The notes under the pieces: model-generated
What the model was told of the DNA's origin: nothing
The model's input: only the letters and a program-made list of their open reading frames with translations
Databases searched by the model: none
Assembly (NCBI GenBank): GCA_002402105.1
Contig: NVVD01000001.1
Span: 513,345 to 577,344 of the forward strand
Direction: 5' to 3'
Origin: Candidatus Cloacimonadota bacterium
GTDB taxonomy: Bacteria; Muiribacteriota; UBA6191
Length of the DNA: 64,000 nucleotides
Part shown: positions 5,966-58,201 of the stretch, in pieces
Position numbering within the stretch: position 1 is the stretch's first letter
Layout of the letters: the number at the start of each line of letters is the position of its first letter
Program-made: the position numbers and the translations under genes

Positions 5966-6079
5966 CGTGGAGAAGATAATTGATAAATTAAATCTTCAAA
6001 AATATTTTATTTTTATGTAAGAAAGATCAAAAAAATTGTCATTCTTAACCCCATGTCCCGAGAGTTGCTAAGTGAATAC

Positions 6080-6225
6080 AGTCAAAAAGTCGGTCTTCTG
6101 GCTTATGGCTCAAACCTACTTATCATACCTTCCCATTAAAAACAGTGGTATCTATGACTTTCGTAACCAATTACAGCGGCGGGTCCGCAACGGAATTTAA
6201 CCGTTTTCCCATTACTTCTTGAAAA
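6080..6225 (-). ncRNA. Cobalamin (AdoCbl) riboswitch
   Basis: Read on the minus strand, the leader has the family landmarks in order: AATGGGAA, then ACGGTTAAATTCCGT, then GCGGACCCGCCGCTGTAA, then the B12-box-like AAAGTCATAGATACC (about 6147-6161), a GGGAAGG helix and the closing CCAGAAGACCG (about 6081-6091). It senses adenosyl- or related cobalamin and should turn down the btuB-exbBD-tonB operon when B12 is plentiful. About 135 nt separate it from the btuB start, and the Shine-Dalgarno hairpin at 5947-5965 suggests translational control. The spacer has no clear intrinsic terminator. Confidence 0.92.
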
Positions 6226-6237
6226 TTAAATTTATTT

Positions 6238-23158: not shown

Positions 23159-23924
23159 AAAAATTATTCTTATTTTATTGTTTTGTTCTTTAAGTTTTGG
23201 AGCAAATGATAAAAAAGTTGTTACAAAGGCTTTATATTCATTTTTTAATCAAAAAAGTGGAGAGCTAATATTAAAAGGTAATGCTGAGATTGTCAGAGAA
23301 GACATCAAATTATATGCAGATGAAATCTTTTATAATGAAAAGAAAAAAGAAGCTTTTGCAGTAGGTAAGGTAAAATTAGATAGCAATGACTTTGTTTTAG
23401 AGAGTGGGCAGGTACGTATTTATTTACCTGGTAATGCTAACTACTCATGGTTGTCATCAGATGAAATGGTGATTATTGCCCAAAAACATCCAAAATTAAC
23501 TCAAAAAGTTGGTAAGAGTAAAACTTATACACAAATTACGGCTGTAGAAATAAAGTTTTTTAAAGAAAGTGAAAAAATAGAAGCATTTGAAAATGTACGA
23601 ATGGTGCAATTAAAAGTAGACGGTTTAAAAGTACAAGAAGATGTTGTGATTACAGGTAAATATTTAGAATATTTAAGTAAACAAAAAAAAGCTTTAGTTA
23701 AAGGTGATGTTAATTTAGAGACTCAAGATATGGGGGCTGTTGGTCAACGTTTGATCTTTTATCAAGAGCAAAAAAAATTTTATGTTATTGATAAAGCAAA
23801 AGTATTTCAATATGATAAAGACGGTAATGTAGAAAACGAAATTCGTGGAAATAAGATATTACATTTAATTAAAGAAGATAGGACAATTTTGATGGGGAAT
23901 GTGGAAGGCTCACTAGACTATTAA
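23148..23924 (+). CDS. lptA: LPS transport periplasmic bridge protein LptA/OstA (258 aa)
   Basis: Periplasmic OstA-fold protein forming the LPS bridge between membranes. It has a signal peptide (1-18) and then OstA repeats: GELILKGNAEIVREDIKLYA, DEIFYNEKKKEAFAVGKVKL, LEYLSKQKKALVKGDVNLET. Typical LptA is about 180 aa; at 258 aa this one carries extra strand repeats, as in several non-enteric lineages. It overlaps lptC by 11 nt. Downstream, 321 bp with a structured repeat separate it from the next gene, so lptB may be transcribed partly on its own. Confidence 0.9.
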   Translation: MTFKKIILILLFCSLSFGANDKKVVTKALYSFFNQKSGELILKGNAEIVREDIKLYADEIFYNEKKKEAFAVGKVKLDSNDFVLESGQVRIYLPGNANYSWLSSDEMVIIAQKHPKLTQKVGKSKTYTQITAVEIKFFKESEKIEAFENVRMVQLKVDGLKVQEDVVITGKYLEYLSKQKKALVKGDVNLETQDMGAVGQRLIFYQEQKKFYVIDKAKVFQYDKDGNVENEIRGNKILHLIKEDRTILMGNVEGSLDY

Positions 23925-24001
23925 ATTTTTGGTAGGTGGGGTAGTAAGACTTTTTGAGTACTCTAGGTATGGCGAATTTTTATTGCTTTTTGGGGCTTTT
24001 C

Positions 24002-24110
24002 TTTTATGCGGTCGCATCTAATTATTATCTTTTGCTTCTCTTCATTTTCTCGTGTACATTCGTACACGTCGAAAATGAGATGAAACAAAATATAACAATT
24101 ATCTGCAACC
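24002..24110 (+). repeat. Structured intergenic element, copy 1
   Basis: One of three copies of a dispersed element. It opens with TTTTATGCGGTC (24002-24013) and closes with TGCAACC (24104-24110). The ends pair as GGT/ACC, a C-A mismatch, then GCA/TGC. Inside, CATTTTC and CGTGTAC pair with GTACACG and GAAAATG to make a long hairpin (about 24043-24081). It lies about 80 bp past the lptA stop, in the lptA direction. The upstream flank CTTTTTGGGGCTTTTCTTTT is also shared with copy 3. Confidence 0.75.
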
Positions 24111-38167: not shown

Positions 38168-38197
38168 AAGGTCTCCCACGGGAGACCATTTTTTTTG
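38168..38197 (+). terminator. Rho-independent terminator of the hook operon
   Basis: GGTCTCCC and GGGAGACC form a perfect 8-bp stem with a 2-nt AC loop, followed by ATTTTTTTT. It lies about 110 bp past the flgE stop. Confidence 0.92.
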
Positions 38198-38272
38198 GGG
38201 TTTTAAAATGGGTAAATAAGGCGCTATGGTAATTTATTTTCAGGCGGTAGTTCTTGACTTTGTTGAGTCGTT

Positions 38273-38380
38273 TTTTATGCGGTCGTATATGGTGGCAGTT
38301 TTTCCTTTTTTTTTATTTATTCTAGTAGCCTACTACTAGTCATAAATAAAAAGAGGAAAATCTACTCACCCTATACAACC
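38273..38380 (+). repeat. Structured intergenic element, copy 2
   Basis: Opens with TTTTATGCGGTC (38273-38284) and closes with ATACAACC (38373-38380). The ends pair GGT/ACC, a C-A mismatch, then GTATA/TATAC and GG/CC. Inside is a long hairpin (38301-38360): TTTCCTTTT with AAGAGGAAAA, TTTATTTA with TAAATAAA, and CTAGTAG with CTACTAG. It lies downstream of flgE and its terminator, in the same direction. The 498-bp gap 38060-38557 holds the structured trailer, the terminator, this element and a promoter, and I see no further gene in it. Confidence 0.75.
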
Positions 38381-56172: not shown

Positions 56173-56280
56173 GGTTACAGATGATGATTGTATTTTTCTA
56201 TTTTTATTTTCGACTAGTAGTTTACTACTTGAGAAAATAAGGAAAAGAAAAAGACATTTATCAGATGTGACCGCATAAAA
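56173..56280 (-). repeat. Structured intergenic element, copy 3 (inverted)
   Basis: On the minus strand it opens with TTTTATGCGGTC (56280 to 56269) and closes with TGTAACC (56179 to 56173). The ends pair GGT/ACC, a C-A mismatch, then ACA/TGT. The inner hairpin pairs TTATTTTC with GAAAATAA around AAGTAG-TAAA-CTACTAG. The upstream flank CTTTTTGGTGCTTTTCTTTT is shared with copy 1. It lies 77 nt past the stop of the phosphatase gene, in that gene's direction, between converging genes. Confidence 0.75.
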
Positions 56281-56356
56281 AGAAAAGCACCAAAAAGTCC
56301 TCAAGACACCAAAAATTTTAGACTTACAAGCCAATAAAACTTCTCACCCTCAAAAA

Positions 56357-58201
56357 TTATTTGAGTTTGGCTACGTCGATTAACTCACCTGTCGATGAAA
56401 TTGCTGAAAGAAATACACCATTTTCTTCGATATTAACTAAGATAAAATGTTGTTTCCAGTCAAACTTTTTAACATTTTTTGACCAAGGTAAGTTTTTGAC
56501 TTGATAATAATAAGGAGCGCCAACGCCACCAGAAATCATTTGCCAAACATCATGTTTAAAACCTAAGTCTTTGTTAGATGGGACGATTGTTCTTGAGTAG
56601 TTGTGCTCATCTCCAAACATTGCAAAAACAGTTTTTGAAGAAGCTGAAATACTTTTCCAAAATCGGTTTCGCATGATGTTTACATAGTTTCTATCAAAAC
56701 CAGAGTTAAACTCTTTTTTACCGTTGCCATAATACATACCGTCTGTCCAATGGACACTATTTGGGTAAGCAGGCTCATGGGTAAATACAAAAATATATTT
56801 AATGTTTTTATCATTATGAAAGTTTTGGACGGTTTCATCAATCCATTTTAGTTGACCATCCATGATATGGCCCTCTAGGTTTCCACCATTTAAAACCTCT
56901 GGGTCTGATGTATACCAATAATTGGTATTTGCCATAATAAAACCAACTCCGTTGTAAGAGTATGAGTAAACATTTTCCTTGTAAGTTGGAGTGTTTTTAG
57001 CTTCTGGTTTTGGGCCATTTGTTGGGTTTACAAAATGTTTGGCAAATAAGCTTTCTGTAGAAATATCAGGGTGAGGAATAGAAAAACTCCCCCATTTTGC
57101 TTTTGGAGCAGTAGTTTTATCCTTTGCTCTAAAGCGTCCAAGTAGGGCTTCGTGGTTTCCCATTCCCTCATAGATTGGTATATATCTACCAACTGGTGTT
57201 GAGGCCTTTTTCCAGGCTGCTATTTGTTGATTAAAGTCACTAATACTTGTAGTATAACCATCAATTAAATCCCCAGGAAATACAATGAGTTCAGCACCTT
57301 TATCATAGGCTTTACGAAATAAGTTTTTAATAGATTTTGTATTTGTACCTTGTAGCTCGACCTCTCCACCACCAAGACCAGAGCGAGAGTCAGACATACA
57401 AGCAAATGAAAATGGAATGAATGAGTCTGAGGATGTTTTGATATTTAGTTTGGGATAATTATACCATGAAGATATTTTACTGTTTTCGATATTAGGTAAT
57501 TGTACTTGATAGGTGTATTTTTGATTTTGCTTTACATCAATCTTAATTTCATGGTGTTTTGACTTTTTAAAAGGGATAACTCGAAACTCTGTTTTGTTTT
57601 CTTCTTGTAGTGTAATTTTACCTTCAGAGGCTATATCTAAATCAAAGCTAATGATAATTTCTCCAGCTTTATGTGTATCGTAAAAAGGGCCGTAAAGAAG
57701 GTTAGATTGTAGTGATCTTTGGTTTTGTTTATTTTTATAATATCTAAAACTAGTTTGATATATATCATTAGCTTGTTTTTTTGGATTATAAAACTCAAAT
57801 TGTAAGGGGACAATACCACCAGATACAGCATAACCAGCAGCATCATATTTTGTTTTTTCAGGGGAGTATCTTGATTTAGGGTTAAAATTAAAAGAAAACT
57901 GATGCTTTTTATCAAAATTTTGTGAATTTTCTTTGAGTTTATATCTTAATCTTGGATAAGGAAAGTTTTGGTTTGGATGAATATGACCAAAGTATAAAAC
58001 TCCTGGATGGGTATCTTTTAGAGTTTCGATTTTGATCTGAAGCTCTTGATCTTTTGAAATAGTAATAGAGGGTTCTGATTTATAAAATTGAATGCCTCTT
58101 TCTTCTTTGATTGTTTCAAAGTTAGCTTTTGGGCTTAACTTTAGGTTAGGGGTAAAAGAAAAAGTCGTTGAACTAATAATTAAAGCTAACAAAAAATACA
58201 T
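56357..58201 (-). CDS. Secreted purple acid phosphatase-like metallophosphoesterase (614 aa)
   Basis: Exported phosphoesterase. A signal peptide (1-15) is followed by an N-terminal beta-rich domain (about 20-265) and a calcineurin-like catalytic domain (about 268-590) with motif order CMSDSRSG, FPGDLIDG, YEGMGNHEALLG, FVFTHEPAY and MFGDEHNYSR, which supply the dimetal ligands Asp, Asp, Asn-His, His and His. The N-terminal domain may bind substrate or the cell surface. Structured element copy 3 lies just downstream. Phosphate scavenging together with the NptA transporter is plausible but not shown. Confidence 0.88.
   Translation of the reverse strand: MYFLLALIISSTTFSFTPNLKLSPKANFETIKEERGIQFYKSEPSITISKDQELQIKIETLKDTHPGVLYFGHIHPNQNFPYPRLRYKLKENSQNFDKKHQFSFNFNPKSRYSPEKTKYDAAGYAVSGGIVPLQFEFYNPKKQANDIYQTSFRYYKNKQNQRSLQSNLLYGPFYDTHKAGEIIISFDLDIASEGKITLQEENKTEFRVIPFKKSKHHEIKIDVKQNQKYTYQVQLPNIENSKISSWYNYPKLNIKTSSDSFIPFSFACMSDSRSGLGGGEVELQGTNTKSIKNLFRKAYDKGAELIVFPGDLIDGYTTSISDFNQQIAAWKKASTPVGRYIPIYEGMGNHEALLGRFRAKDKTTAPKAKWGSFSIPHPDISTESLFAKHFVNPTNGPKPEAKNTPTYKENVYSYSYNGVGFIMANTNYWYTSDPEVLNGGNLEGHIMDGQLKWIDETVQNFHNDKNIKYIFVFTHEPAYPNSVHWTDGMYYGNGKKEFNSGFDRNYVNIMRNRFWKSISASSKTVFAMFGDEHNYSRTIVPSNKDLGFKHDVWQMISGGVGAPYYYQVKNLPWSKNVKKFDWKQHFILVNIEENGVFLSAISSTGELIDVAKLK

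Follow-up and report, generated by a model that had tools for sequence, protein, structure and literature searches.

Dispersed, imperfect palindromes of about 100 nt lie at the 3' ends of genes and transcription units in the genome of this organism. They occur in many copies, have evolved by compensatory changes, and keep a fixed distance and orientation to the gene ends. The element is absent from the orthologous gene end in another species, and the coding tail adjacent to it is recoded in two distant lineages. Clearly, the copies serve some purpose for which they are maintained. Our preferred explanation, which we put forward tentatively, is that they are maintained for folding as DNA, in a manner resembling the REP/BIME palindromes. 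Dispersed palindromes are common, but we know of none that keeps a fixed distance to stop codons and is accompanied by synonymous recoding of the gene tail. Since gene ends that carry the element can here be matched with ends that lack it, and covarying structures and two independent lineages are at hand, the role of extragenic palindromes at gene ends, which is an old question, becomes directly testable.

Copies, fold and compensatory change

The window, i.e., the whole stretch of 64,000 nucleotides under analysis, holds three copies (Table 1). As an initial annotation had described, they share TTTTATGCGGTC (at 24002 (+), 38273 (+), and 56280 (-)), their arms terminate in AACC(T), their closing and inner stems change in sequence while the pairing is kept, and a gene on the same strand lies upstream of all three. 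Each GGT...ACC hairpin of the window has TTTTATGC directly in front of it. The fold z-scores of the three copies are -8.9, -9.2, and -5.7, and none of 200 shuffles folds as well. The C-A mismatch that had been called invariant turned out not to be so: several copies (e.g., L002, L012, L001, and most of the "V" copies) have a normal pair in its place, and in copy L148 it is reversed to A.C. The sole Rfam match over the window is a cobalamin riboswitch, the hairpin copies being above no gathering threshold, and seven further loci had no match in Rfam. We discarded an in-frame peptide, as the frame through ATGCGG differs between copies, and a replication-oriented element, as the GC skew keeps its sign across the switch of orientation in the window and copy 3 just follows its gene. 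About 2 kb to the left of the window there is an intact Y1 (IS200-type) transposase gene (G000 C40:511195-511560).

Table 1. Hairpin copies and other features of the window, in window positions
Feature	Position	Strand	Remark
Cobalamin riboswitch	6071-6234	-	Rfam match
Recoded coding tail, last 8 codons of LptA-like gene	23898..23921	+	
Spacer of copy 1, T/G-rich, 85 nt from stop codon to hairpin	23925..24009	+	
Hairpin copy 1 (GGT...ACC)	24010..24110	+	behind LptA-like gene
Intrinsic terminator GGTCTCCC/GGGAGACC with T-run, before copy 2	38170..38196	+	
Spacer of copy 2, 84 nt from end of terminator T-run to hairpin	38197..38280	+	read directly from the sequence
Hairpin copy 2	38281..38380	+	behind flagellar-hook-like gene
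Hairpin copy 3	56173..56272	-	behind metallophosphoesterase gene
Spacer of copy 3, 84 nt	56273..56356	-	
Recoded tail of metallophosphoesterase gene	56360..56383	-	in the last 8 codons, all 4 with a final pyrimidine have C

In the draft genome of this organism (hereafter G000; 8.6% estimated contamination), the exact 12-mer is present 16 times. A covariance model built on 12 copies found approximately 27 full copies there, plus some remnants, and we put the family at around 30 copies in this genome, a count slightly inflated by the duplicated copies that contigs C5 and C34 hold. The same model identified around 45 copies, including class A/V relatives and a subfamily borne by miniature transposons (MITEs), in the sole other genome of the genus, a draft of another species that is 86% complete (G001; its contig C8 is JAGSHD010000006.1, deposited as Candidatus Cloacimonadota MAG GY13CL_bin.7). 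G001 has no equivalent of the Y1 transposase gene mentioned above. Two other genomes of the family, searched with the covariance model, had zero copies. Three weak matches to this first model in a distant genome of the same phylum, from another family (G012), led us to build a separate model, which revealed at least about 85 distinct copies of its own hairpin family (at least 88 matches before opposite-strand hits were removed). The R1 match L138:3044-3174 was judged a chance palindrome and excluded. Half copies were considered as carriers of cargo, an idea that we rejected as most resemble decayed remnants. One copy, L009 (G000 C14:38954), has around 115 nt of extra DNA in its right arm, and this insert itself contains inverted repeats.

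We aligned 34 copies from the two species with MAFFT, on sequence alone, and RNAalifold predicted a single hairpin of 35 pairs, of which 23 have changed on both sides. Doubly changed, compensated cells number 169 vs 48.7 in shuffles. Pairing is kept in 94.3% of the cells and drops to about 45% when the structure is slid, while the covariation score is 0.411, vs 0.143 for shuffled alignments and at most 0.087 for slid structures. Columns 22/99, for example, read GC 15 times, CG 8, UA 6, and AU 2. At class-V sites shared by the two species, stems have changed in a compensated way from one genome to the other, as behind a SPOR gene (GGTCTTAT/ATAAGACC vs GATCTCAT/ATGAGATC). The positions that do not pair are largely fixed, reading C.A, C.T, T.T, and TC/TC on the plus strand and G.T, A.G, A.A, and tandem GA on the minus strand. 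The foot of the hairpin is GGT/ACC or TGCG/CGCA. The initial annotation had made its case depend on further copies and on covariation among them; with dozens more copies in G000 and G001 and strong covariation across the 34 aligned ones, neither check refutes it. Copy number, covariation, and the anchoring described below support its claim of a dispersed element kept by folding and tied to the 3' ends of genes.

Placement at gene ends and recoding of the coding tail

Among the non-MITE copies with a detected upstream ORF, this ORF is on the same strand in 45 of 48. The distance from its stop codon to the hairpin is either 84.9 nt (SD 4.0, 23 copies) or 5-18 nt (13 copies). Other copies are anchored to ends of another kind: window copy 2 starts 84 nt past the T-run of a strong terminator, three copies of G001 lie about 85 nt past 5S-rRNA terminators, and one copy each was found behind tRNA-Val and behind the rplQ terminator. 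The 85-nt spacers are T/G-rich and dissimilar in sequence; the rRNA paralogues have near-identical hairpins and different spacers of equal length. A conserved fold was sought in the spacers, which gave a mean z of -1.2 and no common structure. An upstream ORF was detectable for 30 of the G012 hairpins, and 27 of these abut or overlap its stop codon, starting anywhere from 25 nt before the end of that codon to 12 nt after it. In the stretches of G012 that we read, the hairpins are mostly found behind the last gene of a same-strand run. The neighbours are often central genes, such as rpsB, eno, flagellins, pyk, sucD, ahcY, lpd, prs, acs, and nrdB, which were named partly by reading their proteins. 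Behind sucD and ahcY, the hairpin lies between the stop codon and the terminator.

Two kinds of repeats were also observed at these loci. The 3' ends of 5S-rRNA and their terminators are partly tandem-duplicated, with a hairpin after each (starts of L124, L118, and L168; L144:2830-3285). Long T/G-rich noncoding stretches behind nrdB, oppF, and a cytochrome gene (L164:1900-3110, L160:1-400, L162:3192-3335) carry locus-specific short TTCG or TTTG hairpins in tandem, such as a unit of 82 nt present in 3 copies, two of them identical.

The genes followed by a hairpin are recoded at their ends. In their last 8 codons, 112 of the 170 pyrimidine-ending codons (66%) end in C, vs 44 of 190 (23%) in the genes of the window that lack a hairpin (p=2e-16). 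When orthologues with and without the element are compared at third positions encoding the same amino acid, T to C dominates in the last 8 codons (22 vs 6) and A to G in codons -9 to -30 (38 vs 8), and the changes are balanced farther upstream. Genes beside MITE copies lack the recoding. The tails of G012 have been recoded independently, with NNC/NNY ratios of 0.49, 0.68, and 0.45 vs 0.17-0.18. The effects on spacer and tail could be mutational or selective. A recoded tail may leave the DNA or the mRNA next to the hairpin free of interfering pairing; most tests for pairing between the C-rich tail and the flank showed no gene-specific complementarity (1 of 11 at p=0.046).

Gain, loss and mobility

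At 19 gene ends, the hairpin is present in one of G000 and G001 and missing behind the orthologue of the other, which shows that copies come and go. At lptA-lptB, gmd, prs, acs, and nrdB, the next gene of the hairpin-free species starts directly after the stop codon, and at rplQ the native terminator has been retained, with the hairpin after its T-run. The two species have seven sites in common (eno, moaE, sucD, oppF, a cytochrome c, a SPOR gene, and lpd), the one at lpd being a half copy in G000. We discarded a conserved distance to the next gene: occupied sites differ in the net length that they have gained, so these comparisons do not demonstrate simple insertion of a fixed unit.

The class-B copies of G001 are MITE-like, with inverted ends GTAATTATTCAG/CTGAATAGTTAC, of a type typical of IS66-type elements, and 8-bp target duplications around the hairpin (e.g., AAAAACTC, AATACTTT, and TAATAATC). 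They (e.g., L121, L129, L170) are MITEs of approximately 230 bp with GTAA ends that have acquired the hairpin. With the 19 hairpin-free orthologous ends, they bear out the earlier suggestion of mobility for part of the family. One could then regard all copies as purely selfish, non-autonomous transposons devoid of host function, for which this subfamily and the hairpin-free gene ends would speak. We consider this improbable: neither terminal inverted repeats nor target duplications were seen in the class A/V copies, and the precision relative to the stop codon, the compensatory evolution, and the recoding of coding tails, which is missing beside the MITEs, all require selection. As a separate observation, neighbouring pairs of tyrosine recombinase genes are present in G000 (C39, C27) and G001 (C17, C6) and possibly belong to RIT-like elements.

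Nature of the folded molecule and comparison with known systems

In the well-paired columns of 50 aligned copies (1590 cells), we counted 1453 Watson-Crick pairs, 28 G.U, and 40 A.C, and one-sided changes are rare in the stems. The control, which comprises only 9 tRNAs from the same loci, gave 183 Watson-Crick pairs, 14 G.U, and 0 A.C in its stems, a difference in wobble pairs that is significant (Fisher p=3.5e-5). The hairpins of G012 have 8 G.U vs 17 A.C. The tolerance of G.U over A.C that marks the stems of RNA elements is thus seen neither in the family nor in G012. Because G.U is no commoner than A.C, unlike in tRNA stems, the constraint looks like that on a folded DNA and not on a sense-strand 3'-UTR RNA, and the folded molecule is more likely DNA than sense RNA. 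If a single strand acts, it would be the bottom one, on which the conserved non-pairs are not pyrimidine mismatches but G.T, A.G, and tandem GA. Among the options that the initial annotation had left side by side, the data speak more for a single-strand DNA or mobile element, whereas a family of structured sense-strand RNAs in 3'-UTRs is disfavoured by the wobble pairs and by the several copies behind intrinsic terminators. An RNA role for the transcribed copies may exist all the same.

In this last view, the sense strand would form a 3'-end RNA in which the transcribed hairpin acts as a factor-dependent terminator, a barrier to 3'-exonucleases, or an RNase III site in highly expressed operons. 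The hairpins are positioned and oriented like terminators and 3'-UTR stems, those of G012 mostly end same-strand gene runs, and the neighbour genes often belong to kinds that are generally expressed at high levels (rpsB, eno, flagellin, pyk, sucD, rrn). Several copies, as at sucD and ahcY, are located after the stop codon but before the terminator and are transcribed, which counts against the DNA reading. The strongest objection to the latter is that only translation knows the stop codon: a DNA-level process has no obvious means of recognizing it, which favours a role linked to translation or transcription, and makes sense RNA or transcription end a close second. The low G.U could also result from selection for very stable RNA stems. 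On the other side, besides the wobble pairs, no T-run follows the hairpins, so they lack the GC-rich stem plus T-run of intrinsic terminators; paired copies of DNA uptake sequences do have a T-run after them. Copies also occur behind terminators (window copy 2, rplQ, rrn), even if our terminator scan is too strict to be used as a count, and at some sites, such as lptA-lptB, the other species has the next gene right after the stop codon. On balance, we regard a sense-strand RNA as a real possibility, less likely than folded DNA.

Under our preferred reading of palindromes kept for folding as DNA, the palindrome would fold as a hairpin in one strand, or as a cruciform whose extrusion might be driven by the supercoiling that accompanies transcription. 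It could play a REP/BIME-like role as a structure that ends transcribed units and is recognized by a putative host protein. Spread would proceed by small insertions or replacements that survive only beside a gene end. In a broader formulation, which we consider rather unlikely, the palindromes would represent a gene-end system that has not been described before. It would put a DNA palindrome capable of folding at stop codons, terminators, and tRNA ends genome-wide, and the process or selection underlying it would recode the final 24-90 nt of the gene as well, from T to C within the last 8 codons and from A to G ahead of these. At least two families of a single phylum would each have evolved a separate hairpin family.

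The REP/BIME palindromes of the GTAG/CGTC families are likewise extragenic and dispersed, form species-specific families, keep certain positions unpaired, and are mostly found downstream of coding regions, but they measure 20-40 nt (PMC3733652), whereas the hairpins described here have about 100 nt, a fixed distance to the stop codon, and a recoded coding tail. The foot of the palindrome shows neither of the tags GTAG and CGTC. We found no Y1 (RAYT) transposase in G001 despite its many copies, and one intact gene plus one partial match in G000. The target hairpins of diversity-generating retroelements (DGR) are also DNA hairpins or cruciforms near the stop codon of the target gene in which stem structure matters and sequence does not; unlike the present family, they have stems of 7-10 bp and GRNA loops and need a reverse transcriptase (PMC3240598), of which G001 (86% complete) gave no RVT_1 match. 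Pairs of DNA uptake sequences serving as terminators (PMC1852404) are another dispersed repeat family reused at gene ends, but these sequences are short, unlike the imperfect hairpin of 100 nt.

Finally, the family recalls the attC sites of integrons, i.e., bottom-strand hairpins of 57-142 nt conserved in structure and placed behind cassette genes in the same orientation (PMC2727003). Accordingly, a tyrosine recombinase could act on the folded bottom strand, for instance the integron integrase encoded in both species (TIGR02249, 461 bits in G000 and 464 in G001, cut-off 265), and the gene-oriented placement behind stop codons, the bottom-strand folding signature, and the length all match. This seems improbable. 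The aligned copies end in GGT...ACC or close variants and lack the R'/R'' core boxes (RYYYAAC...GTTRRRY) with their AAC...GTT, and they are scattered behind core genes, away from the integron, instead of being arrayed. No family hairpin adjoins intI as a tandem cassette array would have it; the DNA flanking this gene has GTTAGAC boxes and different repeats. The two integrase genes (L287:859-1809 on G000 C43 and L292:653-1600 on G001 C9) lie at contig ends, with repeat-rich DNA and the GTTAGAC boxes beside them.
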